Shown here: in pieces, positions 51,897 to 62,560 of the stretch
How the letters are laid out: the number at the start of each line of letters is the position of its first letter
Numbering within the stretch: position 1 is the first letter of the stretch
Source: Salegentibacter agarivorans
GTDB lineage: Bacteria; Bacteroidota; Bacteroidia; Flavobacteriales; Flavobacteriaceae
Assembly (NCBI RefSeq): GCF_900113135.1
Contig: NZ_FOOH01000017.1
Coordinates: forward strand, 1-64,000
Length of the DNA: 64,000 nt
Reading direction: 5' to 3'
The notes under the pieces: model-generated
The model's database searches: none
Told to the model about the DNA's origin: nothing
Seen by the model: only the letters and a program-made list of their open reading frames with translations
Translations under genes and position numbers: made by a program

Positions 51897-52916
51897 ACCT
51901 GAATTCGATCTAAGGATTTAATAGAACAGTGCAATTTGATTGGTTGTTTGAGTTTCAAATTTGATCGCTGGTTTTTTTTCCTGGAAAGAATAGGCTATGA
52001 GACTGGCTACGAGATTTGTAATGAAATTCCCAAAACTTCTGTGCCTGGAATGTTCAGCCTGGCAGATATTTTTGAGCTGGTCGTTGATGGTTTCTATAAT
52101 TGACCTCTTTCGTAACAAGATTTTATCTCGCATGGTCATCAGTACATTCTTCATATTATTTCTGATTCCTGTCACCAAATGTAGTCCCTGATCAAATAGT
52201 AGCGCGGTGAGTTCCTTAGAGAGGTTCCCTTTATCAGCATATAAACTGCCAAAAATCTTCTTTAGAAAATTATCTTGTTTGATAGGTGTTCGGTCATCCA
52301 CATTGGCTTGGGTGATAATAAAATCAAGCAATTCTCCTTTATCATTTACAACGATATGGAGCTTAAATCCATAAAACCATCCCATCGTTGATCTGCCAGT
52401 GGTGGCAATATCTTTGAATACTTTATTATTCTTTATCCGCTTATTTTTACAAGCTCGTATGGGAGTAGAATCTACGAATGAAATTCCGGTACATTCTCCA
52501 AGACAGCAAGTTTTCATATAAAGAGTCAGTGGAAGCATATTGGCCTGCATCAATTCTACAAAGCGGTTGTAAGAAACTGTTTGGGGAAATTCTTTTTGTA
52601 AATGTTCCTGAACATAGTATAAATAGAAGTGTTTAAAGGTGCGATGACCACTCAGGTGAAACAGCACAGTGATGGTTAATATTTCACTGGTAGACATCTT
52701 AAAGGATCGATTTCTTTTGTTTTTACCCCTGGTTAGTGTTGTGCAGGTTCAAAAACTTTACAAAAGTCATCGATAGAACAGAAAATTTCAGTAATTTTAT
52801 CAGTAGAAATCATAAGCAGAAATTAGGTTAGTATTTTGGTTTTCAGATACTTAAATATAACCATATTTCTGCTTTTTTCATGCTAAAAAACTACTTTTCT
52901 TACGTCGAACTCAGGT
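51897..52916. mobile_element. IS982-family insertion sequence with broken transposase
   Basis: The left end ACCTGAATTCGATCTAAG (51897-51914) and the right end read inward, ACCTGAGTTCGACGTAAG (52916-52899), match at 15 of 18 positions. The flanks carry the short direct repeat CTATA (51892-51896 and 52917-52921). The 1020-bp element holds one minus-strand transposase gene. It lies between the glycan loci and the sulfur/efflux genes. Confidence 0.85.
51918..52813 (-). pseudogene. IS982-family transposase, frameshifted near the N terminus
   Basis: The open part (259 residues from the ATG at 52695-52697) has the DDE residues in ISFVDSTPIRACKNKRI, GSLYADKGNLSKEL and KRSIIETINDQLKN. The true start appears to be the ATG at 52811-52813 (MISTDKITEIFCSIDDFC), whose frame hits a TAA after FEPAQH. 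The missing family segment TRGKNKRNRSFKM, leading into MSTSEIL, is in another frame. A frameshift of one or two bases near 52735-52745 therefore splits the gene. The catalytic part alone is unlikely to transpose well. Confidence 0.8.
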
Positions 52917-52944: not shown

Positions 52945-53160
52945 CTAATAATTAGATTCTTCTGACCTTACTTCGCAAGTTCCGGTAGAACAATTTCTTC
53001 CCGCACAGGCAAGTCCAAAAAGCCCCATAGCAGCAGGCCAGGCGCCGAGAAGAATACCAATCCATTCTCCTTCAAATGCGCTTTGCACGATTACAAAAGT
53101 TCCTATTAAAAAATAGGCAGCTCTTATCCAGGTCCAACCGGTAGCAATTCTTTTTAGCAT
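52945..53160 (-). CDS. YgaP-like inner membrane protein (DUF2892-type)
   Basis: The 71-residue protein has two hydrophobic segments (AAYFLIGTFVIVQSAF and WIGILLGAWPAAMGLFGLA), the layout of the membrane part of YgaP, where it is fused to a rhodanese domain. A cysteine-rich tail (CAGRNCSTGTC) follows. Here the rhodanese partners are separate genes just upstream, 7 bp away. It may move or sense sulfane sulfur across the membrane together with them (inference). It is the last gene before IS982. Confidence 0.82.
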   Translation of the reverse strand: MLKRIATGWTWIRAAYFLIGTFVIVQSAFEGEWIGILLGAWPAAMGLFGLACAGRNCSTGTCEVRSEESNY

Positions 53161-53167
53161 ATTAAGA

Positions 53168-53482
53168 TTATATTTTACCTTTTAGTGCGGCCCAGCTGCC
53201 GCCGTTATGCACATTTGAGAATCCGTTAGATTTTAGTACACTTTTGGCGGAAGCACTTCTCATCCCCGAAGCGCAACAGGTAATTATTGGCTTATTTTTA
53301 TCTTTTAATTTTTCAAAATTTGCAGATAGTGTTTGCAAAGGAATATTTTTTGATCCTTTAATATGACCGCCCGAGAATTCTGCTTTACTTCTTACATCTA
53401 CGATAATTCCGCCTTCCTGCAGGAGTTCTTTATAATTAGGAGCAGGTTTTATTCCTAAAAGCTCTTTAAGTTTTGAAATCAT
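53168..53482 (-). CDS. Single-domain rhodanese-like sulfurtransferase
   Basis: The 104-residue protein has the rhodanese fold signatures GIIVDVRSKAEFSGGHIKGS and the active-site loop TCCASGMRSA, with the second Cys of the pair in the catalytic position. It ends NVHNGGSW. Such proteins carry a persulfide on the active cysteine and pass sulfane sulfur to acceptors. It lies 2 bp after a second rhodanese gene and 7 bp before the membrane protein. Confidence 0.93.
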   Translation of the reverse strand: MISKLKELLGIKPAPNYKELLQEGGIIVDVRSKAEFSGGHIKGSKNIPLQTLSANFEKLKDKNKPIITCCASGMRSASAKSVLKSNGFSNVHNGGSWAALKGKI

Positions 53483-53484
53483 AA

Positions 53485-53769
53485 TTAGGCTGTTTCTGAG
53501 GTTAAAAAATTAACTTCAAGCCACGATCCGCCATTTACACAATCAAATCCCTTGCTGCTTAGATAATTTGCAGCCTGTCCGCTTCTATTTCCCGAGGCAC
53601 AACATAGAATCAAAGGAGATTCTATTTCTTTTAACTCATCAAGCCTTAGTGGAATTTCATTTAACGGGATATTTACGGCTGTAGAAACACTTCCTCCCAT
53701 AAATTCGTTAACGGTCCTTACATCTACTATTGTTCCCTTATTATTTTTAATTAAATCTTCTGTTTTCAT
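53485..53769 (-). CDS. Single-domain rhodanese-like sulfurtransferase
   Basis: The 94-residue protein shows GTIVDVRTVNEFMGGSVSTAVNIPL and the active-site loop LCCASGNRSG, ending VNGGSW. It is related to the next rhodanese but not a close copy. It is the first gene of a three-gene unit whose promoter, with a Crp/Fnr-like site, lies just upstream at 53830-53876. Confidence 0.93.
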   Translation of the reverse strand: MKTEDLIKNNKGTIVDVRTVNEFMGGSVSTAVNIPLNEIPLRLDELKEIESPLILCCASGNRSGQAANYLSSKGFDCVNGGSWLEVNFLTSETA

Positions 53770-53829: not shown

Positions 53830-53876
53830 CAAAATTACTACGAATGCCTTCTTGCTACAGTCACTTTTGTTACATA
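53830..53876 (-). promoter_or_regulatory. Promoter of the rhodanese operon with Crp/Fnr-type inverted repeat
   Basis: On the minus strand TAATTTTG (53837-53830) fits the -7 box TAnnTTTG. Exactly 25 bases upstream lies the 3' end of TATGTAACAAAAGT. The inverted repeat is GTAAC-AAAA-GTGAC (53873-53860). Its centre would be about 41-42 bases before the start of transcription, the class II activator position. The leader would be about 55 nt. The same arrangement with the same spacing occurs at 62227-62273. Confidence 0.7.
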
Positions 53877-53901
53877 ACCGATTAAAAAACAAAGAGAAAG
53901 C

Positions 53902-53935
53902 AAAAAAAATCAGGATGGTATAATGACCATCCTGA
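53902..53935 (-). terminator. Intrinsic terminator after the DUF302 gene
   Basis: TCAGGATGGT (53935-53926 on the minus strand) pairs perfectly with ACCATCCTGA (53919-53910) around a 6-base loop and is followed by eight T residues (53909-53902). It lies 30 bp after the DUF302 stop and ends that transcript before the rhodanese promoter. Confidence 0.93.
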
Positions 53936-53964
53936 CATTAAGATTTAAGAAACTTGCTCGAAAT

Positions 53965-54354
53965 CTAAGAAAGTCTTTCAATCACCATTTTTAATTTAGA
54001 GCGCACTTCTTGTGCAACATCTCCAAGTTTGTGGTTTTCTACGGCACTCATAGAAGCCACAGGATCTACTGCAGAAACTTCAGTTTTTCCATCTTCTGTT
54101 TCCTGTACAATTACGTTACAGGGTAGCATGGTGCCAATCTTGCTTTCAGCAGAAATTGCCTGGTGGGCCATTTTCGGGTTGCAGGCTCCAAGAATTCTGT
54201 ACTTTCTAAAATCTACATCGAGTTTCTTTTTGAAAGTTTCTTTTACATCTATTTCAGTAAGAATACCAAAGCCTTCTTCTTTTAATTCTTTGGTCACTTT
54301 ATCTATAGCCTCATCGAATGAATCGTTGAGGACTTTTGAAAAATAATAGCTCAT
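53965..54354 (-). CDS. DUF302 domain protein
   Basis: The 129-residue protein has the DUF302 pattern: KELKEEGFGILTEIDVKETFKKKL, the ILGACNPKMAHQAI segment and TMLPCNVIVQE, with one Cys in each. The domain is common in sulfur-related and oxygen-stress clusters but has no established biochemical role that I can name. It has its own short upstream region and is closed by a strong terminator. It has no signal peptide. Confidence 0.9.
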   Translation of the reverse strand: MSYYFSKVLNDSFDEAIDKVTKELKEEGFGILTEIDVKETFKKKLDVDFRKYRILGACNPKMAHQAISAESKIGTMLPCNVIVQETEDGKTEVSAVDPVASMSAVENHKLGDVAQEVRSKLKMVIERLS

Positions 54355-54533
54355 AATATAAATTTTTTGGTTACCCTTAAAGTTAATTGTTTTCTAGCGA
54401 GGGAAGAAAAAGGAATTATTAATCTTGTGTGAATTTCCTAAGAATTTTTTCTCCTCAAGCTTATTTTTAGAAAATAATCCAGATCCAGTTTAAAACTATT
54501 TTTAAGCTGAATTCCTGGAATCTGCTCGATTAT

Positions 54534-54743
54534 TTAGCACTTCTGGCCGGGCTTCACTTCATCAGTCACTCCCAGCCTTTCCAGGATCTTATCCATAAGA
54601 CACCAGTGCGTAAGGGAGGATTGAAGCAGGTTTGCCCCCACAAAAGCGGTAAACCACAACCAGTTAATATTTACATAAACGGCTAATAAAAGACTTCCAA
54701 GCACAAAAGTTCCTGCAATTCCACGTACAACTCGATTTTTCAT
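54534..54743 (-). CDS. YgaP-like inner membrane protein (DUF2892-type)
   Basis: The protein (69 residues from the ATG at 54743) has two membrane segments, GIAGTFVLGSLLLAVYVNI and WFTAFVGANLLQSSLTHWC, and the LMDKILERLGV ending of the YgaP/DUF2892 type. A longer frame starts at 54776 and overlaps the upstream gene by 17 bp, but it adds 11 residues unlike the family. It is another separate membrane part without a fused rhodanese domain, like 52945. Confidence 0.85.
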   Translation of the reverse strand: MKNRVVRGIAGTFVLGSLLLAVYVNINWLWFTAFVGANLLQSSLTHWCLMDKILERLGVTDEVKPGQKC

Positions 54744-54759
54744 TTTAAAAAATTTTAGG

Positions 54760-55065
54760 TTAGATATAATTTTCAATGTTCACCACGGCAGCTCTAATGG
54801 GATTATTGGTTTCCAGGTTCTCATTAAATTCTGAAACCAATTGGAACAGTAGTTCAATCTTTTCATTTTCGGTAAAAGAGAAGAACATAAGCGATTCGTT
54901 CCCGCCTTTTTCTCCCGGAAACCAACTTCTGGTTGCAATGACCGAATTGGTATTTTTATAACCGTCTATTTCAGTACGGCTGAAGGCTTCAATATTTGCC
55001 TTTTTAAAAATGCTGAGGATCTCTTTTTGAAATTCCGCAACACTTGTTACAATTAGTAGTTTCAT
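54760..55065 (-). CDS. Hypothetical protein, possibly PII/CutA-like fold
   Basis: The 101-residue protein is not firmly recognised. Its start KLLIVTSVAEFQKEILSIFKK, an internal acidic helix and the end NPIRAAVVNIENYI give a beta-alpha-beta pattern like small ferredoxin-fold regulators (PII or CutA1). It has no cysteine and no signal peptide. It lies 123 bp after the RND permease gene and just before the YgaP-like gene, so it may be an accessory of the efflux system. Confidence 0.65.
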   Translation of the reverse strand: MKLLIVTSVAEFQKEILSIFKKANIEAFSRTEIDGYKNTNSVIATRSWFPGEKGGNESLMFFSFTENEKIELLFQLVSEFNENLETNNPIRAAVVNIENYI

Positions 55066-55188
55066 TTTTTTAAGGTCTAATGTTCAAAGTTTAATGGTGA
55101 TTCAGTTCTCAGTTTTAGGTTGTGAGTTATCAGTTATTGCTTTTCCAGCGCTCATCACCGACAACCCACAACTCCAAACTGTCTTACA

Positions 55189-58100
55189 TCACTTCCTCAG
55201 TTTTTTTTCTTCAACAACAATTTCTTTTTTCTCCCGTGTTTCATATTTCTTGCGCTCTATGATATAATACACTAAAGGCACTACCAGCAGCGTAAGAATC
55301 GTAGAGACAATAGTTCCTCCCATTAATGAGATTGCCAGCCCCTGGAAAATTGGGTCAAATAGTATCACGAATGCACCTATTACAACAGTTCCTGCAGTTA
55401 GAAGAATAGGAGTAGTTCGCACAGCACCGGCTTCTATCACTGCTTGTTTCAACGGAATTCCGTCTTCCAGGCGTAGGTTCACAAAGTCGATGAGCAGCAC
55501 CGAGTTCCTAACCATAATTCCTGCAAGGGCGATCATCCCTATAAAAGAGGTAGCGGTAAAGAAGGCTCCCATGATCCAGTGCCCAAGTACGATCCCAATT
55601 AGGGAAAGCGGAATGGCCACCATCATCACGATTGGCGCACGATAGTTTTGGAACCAACCAACAATTAGGATATAGATGATAAAGATCACTCCCAGGAAGG
55701 CAATTCCAAGATCTCTAAAGACCTCAAGGGTAATTTGCCATTCTCCATCCCATTTTACGGTATAATCATCTTCCATTTCGGGTTGTTGTATGTAAAGCTC
55801 GTCTAGCTCATAACCGGGAGGAAGTTCGATCTTTTTTAATTTCTCCTCCATTCCTAAGATGGCATAAACAGGACTTTCAAGCTCTCCGGCCATATCTGCC
55901 AGCACATACACCACGCGCTTTTGATTCTTTCTGAAAATGCTTTTCTCCCTCACCTTTTCCTCGATTTGAACAAGATCTGCCACACTCACCATTTGTCCGG
56001 TTTGTGATACCATTTTGATCTGGGAAATATCTACCGGAGTGGATTTTTCCTGCTCTGCCAGAGCAAGAAGGATTCCCACTCTTTGAGTAGCATCTTCATC
56101 ATATAAATGTGCAATTGCTCTTTCCCCCAAAGCGGCATTCATTGTATAAACGATTTGCTGCGGAGCAATTCCATAGCGCATTGCTTTCTCTTTGTCGATC
56201 TCAAAATGATATTCAGTCTGGTCTGCCTCTACCATCCAATCCACATCTATCACATCTGGGGTTTGTTTTAATATGTTCTGGATCTCATCAGCAATTTCCA
56301 TTTGCTTCTCGTAATCGGGTCCGTAGACTTCAGCAACAATTGTTGACATTACAGGAGGTCCCGGTGGTACTTCCACGATTTTCACATTGGCATCAAATTT
56401 TGCCGCAATCTTCTGAATATCGGGTCGTAATATTTTCGCGATGTCGTGGCTTTGCTCACTTCTTTCGCTCTTGTCTTTCAGGTTTACCTGAATATCGGCC
56501 GTATTACTTGCACCTCTCAGGTCATAATGTCTTACTAGTCCGTTAAAGGTTATGGGTGCAGATGTACCCACATAGCTCTGATAATTCACCACCTCCGGTC
56601 TTTGGGACAGGTACTGCCCAATTTCCCTGGAAACAGTCGCAGTTCGCTCTAAAGTTGTGCCTTCGGGCATATCTATCACCACCTGGAATTCATTCTTGTT
56701 GTCAAACGGAAGCATTTTCACAGCGACCGATTTGGTAAAGAACAAGGCAACAGAGCCCAACAACAACAGCATAGTGGTACCCAGGAAGATCCAGCGGGTC
56801 TTTTTGTTGTTAATAAGCGGCCTTTCCAGTTTATTATAGATCTTATATATTCTAGTGTCCTCAATTTGTTCTGCCGATTCTTCCTCAACACTGTCTTTGC
56901 CTTTGCTTTTCTCTCTTAAAAAGATGAGCCCCAGGTATGGTGTAATAGTTAGTGCTACGAATAATGACAGGATCATTGCAATGGAAGCTCCAATAGGCAT
57001 CGGGCTCATATAAGGTCCCATCAATCCACTTACAAAAGCCATTGGCAATACCGAAGCAATCACCGTGAAAGTGGCCAGGATAGTCGGGTTCCCCACTTCG
57101 TTAATGGCATAAAGCGCCGCCTGCTTGAACGGCAGCCGTTTCATCTTGAAATGCCGGTGCATATTTTCGGCTATGATAATGGAATCATCTACCACGATTC
57201 CTGTTACAAATACAAGAGCAAAAAGGGTAATTCTATTAAGCGTGTAATCCAGCAAATAGTAACTAAGCAGCGTAAGTGCAAAAGTCACAGGGACAGAAAG
57301 GAAAACCACTAGTCCGCCGCGCCAGCCCATAGCCAGCATCACCACCAGGGTAACTGCGATAATGGCCCCGATCAAATGCAGCAGTAATTCTGACACTTTA
57401 TGAGAAGCTGTTTCTCCATAGTTTCGGGTAACTTCAACGTGTACATCATCAGGTATAAGATTTGTTTTCAGGTGTTCCACCTTATCAATGATCACATCGG
57501 CTATTTTCATAGCATCCGCCCCTTTGATCTTAGCCACCGATATGGTCACTGCAGGATATTCCGAAGAAAAATTACTTCCCGCTGCAGAGCCTTTTCCGTA
57601 GCCAAAAGAAACATATTCCTTGGGTAATTCCGGTCCTTCGATCACTTCAGCAATCTGGTACAGATAGACCGGTTGTTGCTGTTGAGTGCCAATGATCAGG
57701 TTCTCCACATCTTCAGCAGATTCGAGGAAACTTCCGGTGTTCACCAGAAATTCAGTATCATTTTGATTGAAACTGCCGGAGGAAAGCTGCTGGTTGCTGG
57801 CCTGAATCATTTCAGCCACCCCAAGAAAATCCACTCCACTGGATGCCATTTTATCTTTGTCCAGCACGACGCGCACTTGTCTGCTACGACCACCAATCTT
57901 GTTAGTAATGGAAACATCGGGCACTTTTTCTATTTCGTGCGTAAGCTCATTGGCAATTTGCCTAAGCTGGTAATCATCATAAGTTTCACTCCACAAAGTA
58001 AGGCCCAGCACGGGTACATCATCAATGGCGCGGGTTTTTACCAGCGGCATCGTGGCGCCCAGCGGCATCTGGTCCATATGCTTCATAAGTTCATTATAAA

Positions 58101-58437
58101 GCTTTACATAGGAGCGTTCAATATCTTCGCCCACCAGGAATTGCACGGTCACCATTCCCTGTTCCTTCATTGAAGTGGAGTAGATATATTCTACCCCGGG
58201 AATATTGGAAACCATTTTCTCCAGCGGTTGTATCACCCGCGACTCAAGTTCTGTGGAGCTTGCACCTGGATAACCAACAAAGATATCGGCCATTGGCACG
58301 TCAATCTGGGGCTCTTCTTCCCTGGGGATCAAAAACGAACTGTACACTCCAATGACCATAAACACGATCATTAGTAGCACCGTAAGCTTCGAATCCATAA
58401 AACCTTTGGCAATTTTGCCTGCTAATCCTTCTTTCAT
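55189..58437 (-). CDS. RND-family efflux permease
   Basis: The 1082-residue inner membrane protein is full length for the AcrB superfamily. The first TM is near 15-35, two large periplasmic loops follow, and a central conserved helix reads FVTGIVVDDSIIIAENMHRH with the paired Asp of the proton relay. A later TM block carries GMIALAGIMVRNSVLLIDF. The charged C-terminal tail (ERKKYETREKKEIVVEEKKLRK) is short. With the adaptor and TolC genes directly upstream it forms a tripartite pump. The substrate is not readable, but the sulfur genes around it suggest a sulfur compound, thiol or related toxicant. Confidence 0.95.
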   Translation of the reverse strand: MKEGLAGKIAKGFMDSKLTVLLMIVFMVIGVYSSFLIPREEEPQIDVPMADIFVGYPGASSTELESRVIQPLEKMVSNIPGVEYIYSTSMKEQGMVTVQFLVGEDIERSYVKLYNELMKHMDQMPLGATMPLVKTRAIDDVPVLGLTLWSETYDDYQLRQIANELTHEIEKVPDVSITNKIGGRSRQVRVVLDKDKMASSGVDFLGVAEMIQASNQQLSSGSFNQNDTEFLVNTGSFLESAEDVENLIIGTQQQQPVYLYQIAEVIEGPELPKEYVSFGYGKGSAAGSNFSSEYPAVTISVAKIKGADAMKIADVIIDKVEHLKTNLIPDDVHVEVTRNYGETASHKVSELLLHLIGAIIAVTLVVMLAMGWRGGLVVFLSVPVTFALTLLSYYLLDYTLNRITLFALVFVTGIVVDDSIIIAENMHRHFKMKRLPFKQAALYAINEVGNPTILATFTVIASVLPMAFVSGLMGPYMSPMPIGASIAMILSLFVALTITPYLGLIFLREKSKGKDSVEEESAEQIEDTRIYKIYNKLERPLINNKKTRWIFLGTTMLLLLGSVALFFTKSVAVKMLPFDNKNEFQVVIDMPEGTTLERTATVSREIGQYLSQRPEVVNYQSYVGTSAPITFNGLVRHYDLRGASNTADIQVNLKDKSERSEQSHDIAKILRPDIQKIAAKFDANVKIVEVPPGPPVMSTIVAEVYGPDYEKQMEIADEIQNILKQTPDVIDVDWMVEADQTEYHFEIDKEKAMRYGIAPQQIVYTMNAALGERAIAHLYDEDATQRVGILLALAEQEKSTPVDISQIKMVSQTGQMVSVADLVQIEEKVREKSIFRKNQKRVVYVLADMAGELESPVYAILGMEEKLKKIELPPGYELDELYIQQPEMEDDYTVKWDGEWQITLEVFRDLGIAFLGVIFIIYILIVGWFQNYRAPIVMMVAIPLSLIGIVLGHWIMGAFFTATSFIGMIALAGIMVRNSVLLIDFVNLRLEDGIPLKQAVIEAGAVRTTPILLTAGTVVIGAFVILFDPIFQGLAISLMGGTIVSTILTLLVVPLVYYIIERKKYETREKKEIVVEEKKLRK

Positions 58438-58463
58438 TTCTTAGTAGTTTTTTTGCTGAAGGC

Positions 58464-59540
58464 TTATCGAATTTCGAGTTTGGCCCCATTATATAATTTC
58501 CCTTCGGCTGAAGAGATATAAGACTCCCCGGCATTAAGACCTGAAAGAACTTCCACCTCATCCCCAACCGTTCTGCCCAGACGCACCCATCTTAGAATGG
58601 CTGTATTTTGCTGGCTAGGAGTATAAATTCCTTGGAGATCGCCACGTGTCACAAGTGCTGAAGACGGAATGAGAACAACGTCCCGGTGTTCTCTAGCTGT
58701 GGTAGGAAACTGAACGCTGGCATACATCCCCGAATAAATCGAAGCATCGGTCTCGTCTAATGCGACTTTTACCACATACTGCCCGCCTGAATTCTTTGCG
58801 GAAGTGCTTATTTCTGAAACTATTCCTTTTAAGGTTTCTCCTGAAGATTTCACCTGTACATCCACTTGTGTTCTCTGTTTAACCGAAGCTATTTCAGATT
58901 CCGGAACACTTGCCCTTACTTCAAATTTTCCCGGAACTTCCAAGTTTAGCAACGGCATACCGGGATTTGCCATATCCCCAACCTCAACATTTTTTGAAGT
59001 AACTATCCCACTAAATGGTGCGACAATATTGGAATAAGCGAATTGCGCGTTGATCTCGTTTTTTTGCTGCCTGGCACCTTCAAGCCTGGCCTTTGCCATT
59101 TCATACCGGGCGGTGATATCATCCATCTCCTTTTGGGAAGCGCTGTTATCTGCAAACAATGAACTGTATCGCTCATAATCTTTTTCTGCATTTCTAAAGG
59201 CCGCTGTGGCTTCAGTAATTCCTGCATTTACCTGCGCCCGCTTTGCCTGCAGGTCCGCATTATTGATCTCGATAAGCAGCTGACCTTTTTTTACCTTATC
59301 GCCTACTTTTGCATTTACGCGGGTTACATAGCCCATATTTCGGGTGCTTAAAGTGGCATTTTCAACGGCTTCTATTTTTCCGCTAAAAGTGAGGAAAGAT
59401 TGATCAGATTCTGAAGGAGTTTCTACGGTAACTTCCACTGCCGGAGTATTTTCTGTAATATTTTTTTCTGAAGAGTCCCCGCAACTAAAGAGTAGGGTCG
59501 TTGCTCCCAAAAGACTCAGGATATATAATTTGGTTTTCAT
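58464..59540 (-). CDS. RND efflux periplasmic adaptor (membrane fusion protein)
   Basis: The 358-residue lipoprotein (Cys20 in LLFSCGDSSEK) has the biotinyl-lipoyl-like halves (VNAKVGDKVKKGQLLIEINN and PFSGIVTSKNVEVGDMANPG), a helical hairpin between them and a beta-barrel domain ending in VLSGLNAGESYISSAEG. It links the inner membrane permease 26 bp downstream to the TolC protein 10 bp upstream. Confidence 0.95.
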   Translation of the reverse strand: MKTKLYILSLLGATTLLFSCGDSSEKNITENTPAVEVTVETPSESDQSFLTFSGKIEAVENATLSTRNMGYVTRVNAKVGDKVKKGQLLIEINNADLQAKRAQVNAGITEATAAFRNAEKDYERYSSLFADNSASQKEMDDITARYEMAKARLEGARQQKNEINAQFAYSNIVAPFSGIVTSKNVEVGDMANPGMPLLNLEVPGKFEVRASVPESEIASVKQRTQVDVQVKSSGETLKGIVSEISTSAKNSGGQYVVKVALDETDASIYSGMYASVQFPTTAREHRDVVLIPSSALVTRGDLQGIYTPSQQNTAILRWVRLGRTVGDEVEVLSGLNAGESYISSAEGKLYNGAKLEIR

Positions 59541-59550
59541 AAAAAGACTG

Positions 59551-60858
59551 TTATTTAATTAAAAAATCGAGTTGTGCCTGTGCGTAATTGTATTCGAAGA
59601 TTGTTTGTGCGTATTCCAGTTGTTTTTGGGAATATTGTGCTTCGGCCGTAAGCAGGTCGCTGGTTTTTTCAAGCCCCTGTTCAAACCTGTTGGAGCGTAT
59701 GCGCAAAGATTCTTCAGCTTGTTCCAGTGCAAGTCGGGTTAGGTTCAGCTTATTTTCGGCATCCTTTACTGCCCGGCTTGCCCTGTTGCGTTCCATTTCG
59801 CTTTTGGAAACATAGGAATCATATTCCAGCCTGGCTTTTTCATAAGTTGCTTTACTTTTCTGAAGTTTTCCGAAGCGCTTGTAACCTTCAAACAAGTCCC
59901 ATTTCAACTGAATGCCTGCGAGATATCCGCTGGCATCGCCAGAAAATATTTCATTATCATAAAGTTCATAGCTTCCAAAGGCATTCAGACGAGGTAGAAA
60001 AAACATTTTATCTGCCTGCAGCATTTCGCCGTAAGCCTCAGTCGCCAGTTCCATTGCCCGAATATCTGCTCTGTCTTTAGAAACAGTTTCAATATTTTCC
60101 TGAACAGGAATTGAAACTTCCAAAGGATCTGTAGGTTCGAAAATAATATTTACTGGTTCGTTTAAAAGATATGCCAGATAATCTGATGCATTGATCACAT
60201 TGCTCTTTGCATACTGAAGCTGATTATTGACTTCAGAAACCCTTATTTCTACTGAAAGTACATCTGATCTTTGCAGATATCCCTGTTTATAAATGTCATC
60301 CGCGAGTTTCTTATTGGCAAGTGCTGCCTTTTGGGCGCTTTCTAAAACTGTTACTGCCTGGTGTGCGAGTTGCAGTTGCATATAAGCTTTCTCCACTTCC
60401 AGCACCATATGGTTTATGGTTCGATCTGTTTGTAAAGCAGTGGCGTCCATTTTCTTTTTTGCCGCTTTTCGCTGGTAGATCCCGTCTAAATTGATAAGCG
60501 GTTGCTCCACTTCGATCTTTGTGGCAAAATTGTTGATCCTTTCAGGATTGTTTAAAAAATCAGGATTGAAGTCACTCTGCGTAACAATTTCCTGGTTCAG
60601 TTTAGACCCAAAAGCCATCAAAGGATTGGTAGTGGTCATCCCGGTATGGGAAACTGCCACGTTTGGTAAAAAGATTGAATTTGTTTGCCGGTAATCTCCC
60701 CTGGATTCGAGGAACTCCTGCTGTGAGATCTTGATCTCCCTGTTGTTTTCCTTTACCAGCTGGACGGCTTCACTTAAGGATATGGGCTTCGTTTCCTGCG
60801 CCTGTAACCATAGCCCCGGCAGTAAAGCCAACATTGTAAATATATATTTGATGTTCAT
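59551..60858 (-). CDS. TolC-family outer membrane efflux protein
   Basis: The 435-residue protein has a signal peptide ending WLQAQ and two TolC repeats of long coiled helices, with ISLSEAVQLVKENNREIKIS at the start and TSDLLTAEAQYSQKQLEYAQ in the second half. It forms the outer membrane duct of the tripartite pump encoded with the two following genes. A gap of 20 bp separates it from the flavoprotein gene. Confidence 0.95.
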   Translation of the reverse strand: MNIKYIFTMLALLPGLWLQAQETKPISLSEAVQLVKENNREIKISQQEFLESRGDYRQTNSIFLPNVAVSHTGMTTTNPLMAFGSKLNQEIVTQSDFNPDFLNNPERINNFATKIEVEQPLINLDGIYQRKAAKKKMDATALQTDRTINHMVLEVEKAYMQLQLAHQAVTVLESAQKAALANKKLADDIYKQGYLQRSDVLSVEIRVSEVNNQLQYAKSNVINASDYLAYLLNEPVNIIFEPTDPLEVSIPVQENIETVSKDRADIRAMELATEAYGEMLQADKMFFLPRLNAFGSYELYDNEIFSGDASGYLAGIQLKWDLFEGYKRFGKLQKSKATYEKARLEYDSYVSKSEMERNRASRAVKDAENKLNLTRLALEQAEESLRIRSNRFEQGLEKTSDLLTAEAQYSQKQLEYAQTIFEYNYAQAQLDFLIK

Positions 60859-60878
60859 CGTTTGTATATTATCTCTGA

Positions 60879-62030
60879 TTAAAAGTTTTTGAAGAACCAG
60901 AATTTTTCATCCCACCATTTGGAGAAATGTCCCCACTGGGCGGGGGTTTTCATCTTTACCTCATTCTTCCCGGTAGCCGAAAACCTTCCTCCGGTCTCAC
61001 TCGCTTTACCTTCGCCCGCTTCGATAAAGTATTTTCCTTCGGGCACGAAAGTTTGATCTGGTTTTTGATTTGAAAGTATTCTGCCAATATTATGAGCTAC
61101 TACCGCTGCCTGTTGTCTTGCAAAAACCCCGATCTTTGGAAGCACAGATCCGGTTTCAGCTTTTACGTGGGTGATATCTCCTATCGCATAAACATTTTCA
61201 TATTTGGTTTCCAAGGTCTTGTTATCCACATCTACCCATCCGGAATTTCCTGCTAAATCGCTCTTTTTGATCACCCCGGGTAGCTGGTGCAGTGGAGTAT
61301 AGGCCAGGAGATCATAAGCATAGGTTTCTCCATTGCTGAATTCCAGTACATTTCCTGAAACAGCTTTCAGTTCGTGGTTTGGGAAATATTTGATCCCTTT
61401 TTTTCCCAGCAGTTCCTTTAGTTCCCGCGAAGCTTCAGCACCGGCGAATTCCATTGGGCCGGCTTCAGGCGTATACAGAGAAATATTAGTGGATTTAGGA
61501 AGGTTGTTCTTTCTTACGAAATCTTCTATAAGCATCGCAGCTTCATAAGGCGCTGCCGGGCTTTTAAACGGAAGGGAAGAAACTAAAATAGCAACTTCAC
61601 CTCCGTCAAACTTTTTTAGTTCAGCATAAAAATCCTGAGCTCCTTTTAGGGTAAAGAAATTAGAGCCAAATTGTTCAAGGTTATAAACATCTGCCTGCTC
61701 CACGCCCAGGGAAACTACCATATGATCTCCTTTATACTGCTTCCCTTTTACGGTTACAGCAATATTTTCTGGATCTATGTTTTCTATTTCCCCTCTAATA
61801 ACTTCCAGGCCTGAAGCCTGCAGTTTATCTGTACGTTCTATGATCTCCTGCTGTTTGCTTTTTCCAACCATTATCCATGGGAGAGATGGCGAATACACGT
61901 TGGTTTCCTCTTTCTCGAAAACCAGGATCTTTACAAGATTGATATCTTCTTCATTCCCGCTGTGTCTGCTCAGTTCTCTTGCAGTGACAATTCCGCCTTG
62001 TCCGGCTCCTAATACTAAGATGGTTTTCAT
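60879..62030 (-). CDS. SQR-like FAD-dependent oxidoreductase without cysteines
   Basis: The 383-residue flavoprotein has an FAD-binding ILVLGAGQGGIVTARELSR at the N terminus, a second dinucleotide region (GGEVAILVSSLPFKSPAAPYE) and the closing YENVYAIGDITH, the layout of sulfide:quinone and flavocytochrome c-type sulfide oxidoreductases. In those enzymes the PFKCPPAPYE motif carries a catalytic Cys. Here it is Ser, and the whole protein has no cysteine at all, so classical sulfide oxidation is unlikely. The C-terminal half ends in an amphipathic, Trp/Phe-rich tail (WWDEKFWFFKNF) typical of membrane-bound SQRs. It is the second gene of its operon. Confidence 0.85.
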   Translation of the reverse strand: MKTILVLGAGQGGIVTARELSRHSGNEEDINLVKILVFEKEETNVYSPSLPWIMVGKSKQQEIIERTDKLQASGLEVIRGEIENIDPENIAVTVKGKQYKGDHMVVSLGVEQADVYNLEQFGSNFFTLKGAQDFYAELKKFDGGEVAILVSSLPFKSPAAPYEAAMLIEDFVRKNNLPKSTNISLYTPEAGPMEFAGAEASRELKELLGKKGIKYFPNHELKAVSGNVLEFSNGETYAYDLLAYTPLHQLPGVIKKSDLAGNSGWVDVDNKTLETKYENVYAIGDITHVKAETGSVLPKIGVFARQQAAVVAHNIGRILSNQKPDQTFVPEGKYFIEAGEGKASETGGRFSATGKNEVKMKTPAQWGHFSKWWDEKFWFFKNF

Positions 62031-62167
62031 AATTGATTATTTTTAAAATTGATGCTGTGAATGCTTATTGCAATAGCTTCAGCTGGTGCTGTGGGATGCA
62101 CCATAGAAGCCAAAATTTTTGGAAATTCTATCAGGATTTCTCTTAAGTAGTCTTGTAGGTTGTTCAT
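62027..62167 (-). CDS. 46-residue small ORF, first gene of the flavoprotein/efflux operon
   Basis: From the ATG at 62165-62167 an ORF of 46 codons (starting MNNLQDYLREILIEFPKI, ending IHSINFKNNQL) stops at 62027, overlapping the next gene's start as ATGA. That 4-bp overlap and the fitting position about 55 nt after the promoter at 62227 argue that it is translated. No family is recognised, and it has no signal peptide or cysteine. It might be a small partner or a leader peptide for translational coupling of the flavoprotein. Confidence 0.6.
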   Translation of the reverse strand: MNNLQDYLREILIEFPKILASMVHPTAPAEAIAISIHSINFKNNQL

Positions 62168-62560
62168 TATTCAATTTTTATGTTGTTGAGGTCAATCTTC
62201 AAACAATTTTATTTCTAATTAGATGACAAAATTAGTGGGTGGATTACCTGTGGGAAGCAACTTTTGTTACATACAGGTCTGGTTGGCAGGTGGGTATACG
62301 GGAATATTTTTTAGGGTCCTATGAGGAAAATCAGGTTTTTGGAAACCTGTTGAAATTTTAATTCATAGTAAGAAAATACTTACATTAAAAAATAATTTTA
62401 TCCTTAAGAATCCCTGGAAATAAATAGGGCCAGACTGAAAATTTTATAAAATTAAAATAATCATATTATCAAATTATTAAGATAAAAGTTTGGAAATTGT
62501 CGATAAAGTGATAGATTAGACGAATCTATTAACCTTTTATTAATCAAACATTTTATTTTT
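62168..62560. promoter_or_regulatory. Divergent intergenic region between efflux operon and S8 protease
   Basis: This 393-bp stretch holds no supported gene. Its left part has the minus-strand promoter described separately. Just before the protease gene, ATAGATT (62511-62517) and AATCTAT (62523-62529) form a 7-bp inverted repeat with a 5-base spacer, 31-50 bases before the ATG. No clear TAnnTTTG box was found for the plus strand. Confidence 0.45.
62227..62273 (-). promoter_or_regulatory. Promoter of the flavoprotein/efflux operon with Crp/Fnr-type inverted repeat
   Basis: On the minus strand TAATTTTG (62234-62227) fits TAnnTTTG. TATGTAACAAAAGT ends exactly 25 bases upstream, and its inverted repeat GTAAC-AAAA-GTTGC (62270-62257) is centred about 41-42 bases before the expected start. 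The leader to the ATG at 62167 would be about 55 nt. Motif, spacing and leader length are the same as at 53830-53876. Confidence 0.72.

Follow-up and report, generated by a model that had tools for sequence, protein, structure and literature searches.

Which protein reads the repeat shared by two promoters?

The stretch of Salegentibacter agarivorans DNA considered here (assembly GCF_900113135.1, contig NZ_FOOH01000017.1, positions 1 to 64,000 of the forward strand; 64,000 nucleotides, hereafter the window) carries two minus-strand units, one of oxidoreductase and efflux genes and one of rhodanese genes, whose promoters share an inverted repeat at a fixed distance from the promoter box. The question raised by this arrangement is which protein recognizes the repeat and what the genes behind it have in common. 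Our comparative sequence analysis points, with a probability that we put at about 0.8, to a Crp/Fnr-family class II activator, P0001, with the two window sites as its operators within a reactive-sulfur regulon.

To establish what the two promoters share, the composite TATGTAACAAAAGT-N25-TAATTTTG was searched for, and it occurred with zero mismatches on the minus strand at 62273-62227 and 53876-53830; these were the only matches in the whole window when up to three mismatches were allowed, whereas 100 shuffles averaged 0.01 matches. The two identical composites described in the first-pass annotation are thus exact and far above chance, and direct comparison agreed with its statement that the 25-nt spacers are unrelated to each other. 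Operator 1 (TGTAAC-AAAA-GTTGC; 62257..62271, minus strand), a pattern match in both the window and genome searches, ends 22 nt before promoter box 1 (TAATTTTG, of the sigma-A type TAnnTTTG; 62227..62234, minus strand). Operator 2 (TGTAAC-AAAA-GTGAC; 53860..53874, minus strand) is followed by TG 20 nt before promoter box 2 (TAATTTTG; 53830..53837, minus strand), an exact composite match. A third match in the window, TGTAACAAGTGTTGC at 55037-55051, was rejected as coding sequence; it lies inside a 101-aa open reading frame (ORF) and is not a composite match.

An operator centred at -41.5 is in the class II activator position, as in CRP, and the first-pass annotation had placed the centre of the repeat near that point. 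In the available excerpt of a study of Flavobacterium psychrophilum the sigma-A box occupies -12 to -5 (PMC9723704); because the centre of the repeat lies 36.5 nt before the last G of the box, this spacing puts it at -41.5, that is, 41.5 nt upstream of the start predicted from the box. The calculated leaders of 55 and 56 nt likewise match the earlier estimate of about 55 nt. Among eight orthologous promoters of the genus, pairwise identity was 93% in the operator (16 nt) and 94% in the TAnnTTTG box but 47% for the spacer, 49% for upstream and 52% for downstream sequence, and among ten rhodanese promoters the corresponding values were 92, 84, 47, 41 and 40%; the loci were found through their proteins and the promoters chosen by motif match, so the operator and box identities are partly a product of selection.

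Further sites and a regulator gene in the same genome

The composite TGTAACN4GTKRC-N22-TAnnTTTG was searched for in the whole genome (4.30 Mb in 56 contigs, the window being part of contig C18), yielding four exact matches, two with one mismatch and two with two, against two for a reversed control pattern. C46:5078 aside, all of these matches fell within the window or within C32:32002-54935. A relaxed form of the pattern, in the genome-wide search that the first-pass annotation had proposed, gave six sites and no control hits; a seventh site is one of the composite matches with two mismatches. Of these seven sites, two are those of the window and the other five fall in the C32 cluster, mostly at sulfur-type genes: one C32 site stands in front of TauE, one before a fatty-acid-hydroxylase-type gene with a metallo-beta-lactamase/rhodanese (persulfide-dioxygenase-type) gene behind it, and one before Sulf_transp and DUF6691 genes. 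The remaining two are back-to-back operators (L022 16094-16199; C32:42093-42198) facing divergent units, one with an acetolactate-decarboxylase-like gene and DoxX and DsrE genes behind it, the other with a small ORF, a protein without a Pfam family and a major facilitator superfamily transporter; the first genes of these two units are not plainly sulfur genes. The near-matches C46:5078 (two mismatches) and C47:27817 (three mismatches) were taken as chance, and their genes were not inspected.

The first-pass annotation had also advised looking for a Crp/Fnr-family gene. One such gene lies on a contig other than that of the window: it encodes P0001 (C32:31364-31996), and 5 nt separate its end from the first C32 site. 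P0001 has a cyclic-nucleotide-type effector domain (PF00027, 38.4 bits; cut-off 27.5) followed by a Crp helix-turn-helix (HTH_Crp_2, 33.2 bits; cut-off 27), and its nearest named relative, from Salegentibacter salinarum, is 96% identical. A structure comparison recovered CRP-type folds at VIA Z 15-17, which confirms the fold only; many of the 50 matches listed had root-mean-square deviations near 13, presumably because the domains are placed differently.

Palindrome, spacing and regulator across the family

To assess whether the spacing is general, we assembled 80 named loci with a P0001 ortholog (mostly Flavobacteriaceae, one genome represented twice), with 10-kb flanks where the contig allowed (1.51 Mb in total). 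GTAAC-N4-GTTAC gave 358 both-strand counts in these loci, whereas 59 permuted arms averaged 2.6 and reached 16 at most, and a strict TAnnTTTG followed exactly 22 nt on in 102 cases, compared with at most one for any of the permuted arms. Expressed per physical palindrome (n = 179), a box 22 nt away to one side was strict in 102, matched at 5/6 bases in 55 and at 4/6 bases in 18, so that 157 of the 179 have a box of at least 5/6 bases at this single distance. In one genome (G438, which has seven exact matches) a palindrome at C1:2653669-2653742, present in L253 and L271, has TAnnTTTG 22 nt away on both sides and may serve two divergent promoters.

An asymmetry is visible in the logo built from 123 unique sites: TGTAAC makes up the promoter-distal half, whereas T (75%) and G (71%) come after the proximal half, 20 nt ahead of the box. 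Bacteroidetes promoters carry a TTG element at -33, and the asymmetry fits a remnant of that element merged into the operator.

Regulator and motif also occur together. Among 149 genomes of the family, 119 have a P0001 ortholog (E value of 1e-40 or better) and 94 have the exact composite site, which was found in 92 of the 119 genomes with the regulator vs 2 of the 30 without it (Fisher p = 6.6e-13, a value that, like the other Fisher values, overstates the association because the sequences are related). The reversed control pattern matched one of the 149 genomes (G129). In one of the two genomes with a site and no ortholog (G010), no ORF of at least 60 aa lies within 350 nt behind the site.

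Target genes

To characterize the genes behind the motif, 80 sites were taken in order from the matches listed, with G106:C40 (at a contig end) left out and G010 added. An ORF of at least 60 aa lay within 350 nt behind 78 of them; the other two were one cut by a contig end and the G010 site. By Pfam family, the 78 first genes were led by TauE (20), rhodanese domain (18), Lactamase_B (15) and TolC-type OEP (11), followed by AhpC/TSA (4), thioredoxin (3), and Sulf_transp, sulfate permease and YgaP (2 each), counts in which one protein can score in several families and which cover the best 25 of 43 families. Cytochrome bd and cytochrome c genes were also among the targets, together with efflux, thioredoxin and AhpC/TSA genes, and one first gene, judged by eye, is the regulator itself (L346). 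In comparison, 53 control genes behind boxes lacking a palindrome (54 ORFs, one frame of 2,972 aa being left out) included five rhodanese and three Lactamase_B genes, and at most one each of TauE and OEP since these were outside the 25 families listed; the controls are conservative because they were partly drawn from regulator neighbourhoods. A small regulon joining efflux with sulfur transfer had been proposed at the outset: the joining is well supported by comparison, with TolC-type efflux genes recurring as targets in other genera (11 of 78 first genes) and sulfur families the commonest, while "small" does not hold, the regulon being widespread in the family. Its theme is likely to be reactive-sulfur handling.

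Recognition helix and cysteines of P0001

Arg182, Val183 and Arg187 of the recognition helix were invariant in 81 of 81 sequences, and among the nine cyclic-nucleotide-domain proteins of the genome the R-V-x-x-x-R helix was found in P0001 only (last 75 residues of each compared). Cys77, Cys83 and Cys84 of the effector domain were likewise invariant in 81 of 81 orthologs, L223 being excluded from the count for want of an aligned regulator. The four-cysteine Fe-S motif of FNR is absent, as P0001 has three cysteines altogether, in one loop. CRP holds the phosphate of cAMP in the region that matches this loop. In the structural model of P0001 (mean pLDDT, the predicted local distance difference test, 86.3), the cysteines are placed in the stretch of loop and short helix that connects strand 65-71 to strand 93-96. 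Relatives L212-L247 keep Cys77 and have Gly-Gly or similar at 83-84. A sulfur-type gene was present within 2.5 kb at 31 of 31 loci whose regulator has both Cys77 and Cys83 vs 16 of 28 with Cys77 only, the 13 query genes including TolC and cytochrome bd (the sole basis for 3 of the 31) and the loci being mutually related; the Cys77-only relatives may sense something else.

Glu often takes the place of Val183 in more distant relatives, and an initial survey of eight genomes suggested that the operator changes with it: nine GTGAC-type sites (at most one mismatch) in the four Glu genomes stood, as judged by eye, before rhodanese, metallo-beta-lactamase, cysteine-dioxygenase-like, DoxX, sterol-desaturase-like, TauE and porin-like genes, one folate-type ligase gene and one small-membrane-protein gene. 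A search for other palindromes 22 nt before a box near Glu-helix regulators gave nothing useful; genome-wide GTGAC searches were productive. The comparison was extended to 53 genomes with regulators that have both Cys77 and Cys83, leaving out three with both helix types (G261, G371 and G178). The 23 Val genomes had 39 exact GTAAC and 2 GTGAC sites, and the 30 Glu genomes 4 and 6 (p = 2.8e-4). Because the hypothesis arose from the initial survey, the test was repeated without seven of its genomes, giving 32 and 1 (Val) vs 2 and 4 (Glu), p = 8.7e-4. Operator and helix residue thus appear to change together in a clear trend, although the code is not strict. In the excerpt of PMC1274295, operator bases are matched to CRP positions 180 and 181, and GTAACnnnnGTTAC is tied to the loss of Glu181 in favour of another residue; the Val found in P0001 fits this.

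Proposed mechanism and alternatives

We propose that a P0001 dimer would bind TGTAAC-N4-GTTAC centred at -41.5, overlapping the -33 region, and would recruit RNA polymerase to promoters in which TAnnTTTG is the sole strong element. The regulon would handle reactive (sulfane) sulfur through sulfite export, rhodanese and persulfide-dioxygenase-type enzymes, YeeE/YedE-type sulfur transport, oxidoreductases resembling sulfide:quinone reductase (SQR), and a TolC-HlyD-RND (resistance-nodulation-division) pump with DUF302. Activation would probably be triggered at Cys77, Cys83 and Cys84 of the effector domain, through persulfidation or a polysulfide bridge. A persulfide or polysulfide signal is our best guess rather than a result, one we hold somewhat better than even, and it is drawn from the proximity of sulfur genes, the location of the cysteine loop and the Cys-x5-Cys of PDB 3dv8, the closest solved chain. 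What the sequences show directly are the sites, their constant spacing, the genes behind them, the co-occurrence with the regulator and the conservation of the cysteines, whereas binding by P0001, activation as opposed to repression, and the signal are inferred.

Several observations weigh against parts of this proposal. The exact site was not found in 27 of the 119 regulator-bearing genomes; confidence in the structural model is lowest at the cysteine loop (pLDDT 64-66), and Cys83 and Cys84 vary in relatives. As to the helix, four exact GTAAC sites occur in Glu-helix genomes (two in G332, one each in G324 and G272), before TauE, metallo-beta-lactamase, rhodanese and TolC genes, and two exact GTGAC sites in Val-helix genomes (G001 and G214). 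In the initial survey, five GTGAC-type hits with at most one mismatch also turned up in the four Val genomes, three of them ahead of a rhodanese or metallo-beta-lactamase gene; three of the eight survey genomes each gave a single match to the reversed control. Of the 13 Glu-helix genomes of genus g127, 12 lack exact sites of either type, and two of them carry mixed GTAAC-N4-GTCAC sites. Second regulator copies (G001, G032) may explain part of the exceptions.

The four GTAAC sites in Glu-helix genomes are what one would expect if another protein bound the palindrome and P0001 were a mere neighbour, but co-occurrence, proximity and the covariation of helix and operator all speak for P0001, and no second Crp/Fnr protein of the genome was seen with a matching helix, so that we regard a different binder as very improbable. 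That P0001 itself would bind but act as a repressor, blocking RNA polymerase until released by reactive sulfur in the manner of SqrR and CstR, draws on the overlap of the operator with the -33 region and on the description of CstR, CsoR, SqrR and BigR as repressors in the excerpts of PMC9918477 and PMC9774590. The single distance kept in 157 of the 179 sites is, however, to be expected of polymerase contact rather than of simple blocking, the centre falls at the class II position, and the -33 element is reduced to at most TG in the logo; repression is therefore improbable in our judgement. Activation by P0001 is also compatible with a signal other than sulfane sulfur, such as nitric oxide, a metal or general redox stress, with the sulfur genes as part of the response. 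An HcpR2-type regulator would be an example, as its motif is the identical GTAACnnnnGTTAC (excerpt of PMC1274295), and the efflux, thioredoxin, AhpC/TSA, cytochrome bd and cytochrome c targets would suit such a response. Yet HcpR2 has Pro (or Ser or Gln) at position 181 according to the same excerpt where P0001 has Val, sulfur families are the commonest among first genes, and no hcp-like gene was noticed by eye among the listed targets, hcp not having been searched for. We consider a different signal unlikely, if not to the degree of the other two alternatives, and retain the class II activator of a reactive-sulfur regulon as the preferred reading.

Genes of the two window units

The first unit (all genes minus strand) opens with a 46-aa ORF (62027..62167) that has no family match and shares 4 bases with the start of the next gene. 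Four of seven other orthologous loci yielded a comparable short ORF with an ATG start, and none was found in the remaining three; the 46-aa ORF may be a leader peptide. The next gene (60879..62030; Pyr_redox_2) encodes an FAD oxidoreductase resembling type III SQR, which scored E 1.3e-51 with SQR_III_seleno but, at 175.8 bits, below the cut-off of 525 of that model, which represents a selenoprotein subtype. It is followed by genes for a TolC-type outer membrane efflux protein (59551..60858; OEP E 5.6e-43), an HlyD/CusB-type membrane fusion protein (58464..59540; HlyD_3, HlyD_D23) and an RND efflux pump (55189..58437; ACR_tran E 2.2e-166). Three further genes probably belong to the same operon: one for a 101-aa protein with no family found (54760..55065; after a 123-nt gap), one for a YgaP-like membrane domain protein (54534..54776; YgaP-like_TM E 3.2e-11) and one for a DUF302 protein (53965..54354; DUF302 E 3.9e-28; after a 179-nt gap). 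Between the units lies a hairpin resembling an intrinsic terminator (53909..53936, minus strand; 11 pairs, then a T run), a kind of site not enriched in the region (9 found vs 9.8 expected from shuffles).

The second unit, also on the minus strand, consists of two rhodanese genes (53485..53769, Rhodanese E 2.3e-11; 53168..53482, Rhodanese E 9.4e-19) and is closed by a gene for a 71-aa small membrane protein without a Pfam or NCBIfam family (52945..53160). Directly downstream is a 259-aa ORF (51918-52697), which by eye resembles a transposase. The site before the SQR-like operon is kept in eight of nine loci of the genus, counting its own, the miss being a 60%-identical paralog. The rhodanese-locus site was present in 19 of 30 loci examined, seven of the 19 being second copies next to a counted one; of the 11 loci without a hit, ten belong to other genera, and the last, G160, has its rhodanese gene about 200 nt behind the SQR-like gene.

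Comparison with known systems

Cyanobacterial NtcA is a Crp/Fnr-family class II activator with the operator TGTA-N8-TACA that senses 2-oxoglutarate and controls nitrogen genes. In alignment it shares the R-V-x-x-x-R recognition helix with P0001 but lacks the three cysteines. The solved chain 3dv8 (E 8.5e-17) has a Cys-x5-Cys that aligns with Cys77 and Cys83, yet lacks the third cysteine and has Glu rather than Val in the recognition helix. Neither NtcA nor 3dv8 was among the 50 structure matches listed, which says nothing against either. HcpR2 resembles P0001 in family, operator and loss of the Glu at the specificity position, but the excerpt of PMC1274295 links it to hcp and nitrogen oxides, gives it Pro at that position and describes no sulfur regulon; we set aside the identification of P0001 as HcpR2 on the residue criterion (Pro, Ser or Gln at CRP Glu181), Val being present in 81 of 81 sequences.

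In proposed role, P0001 is closest to SqrR/BigR, CstR and FisR, which sense sulfane sulfur and control sulfide and sulfur oxidation genes; by type it differs, as SqrR is of the ArsR type, CstR is homologous to CsoR, and FisR is described only as an activator (excerpts of PMC9918477 and PMC9774590). The sulfur sensors named in these excerpts are CstR, CsoR, SqrR, BigR, FisR, OxyR, MexR, MgrA, MarR and NreBC; no Crp/Fnr member is among those described there or in the excerpt of PMC12170894, nor was a published Crp/Fnr sulfur sensor found among the titles and abstract openings of the open-licence literature matches listed. A wide range of Flavobacteria and Proteobacteria oxidize thiosulfate in marine sediments (excerpt of PMC12345210), and the portions of the literature examined held no description of how flavobacteria control such genes. 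The present result supplies a specific regulator, operator and target list for the whole family. It also opens the part played by an RND pump in sulfur handling to direct testing, and the naturally occurring series of operator and helix changes lends itself to studies of DNA choice by Crp-type proteins. Crp/Fnr regulons and reactive-sulfur responses are each known, and their combination appears to be new. We judge it evenly poised whether P0001 is the first Crp/Fnr sulfane-sulfur sensor in the full sense, in which the cyclic-nucleotide pocket would have become a Cys-x5-Cys-Cys thiol switch governing a Bacteroidota-wide class II regulon with a dedicated TolC-RND reactive-sulfur pump, and GTAAC and GTGAC operators would shift with one helix residue.

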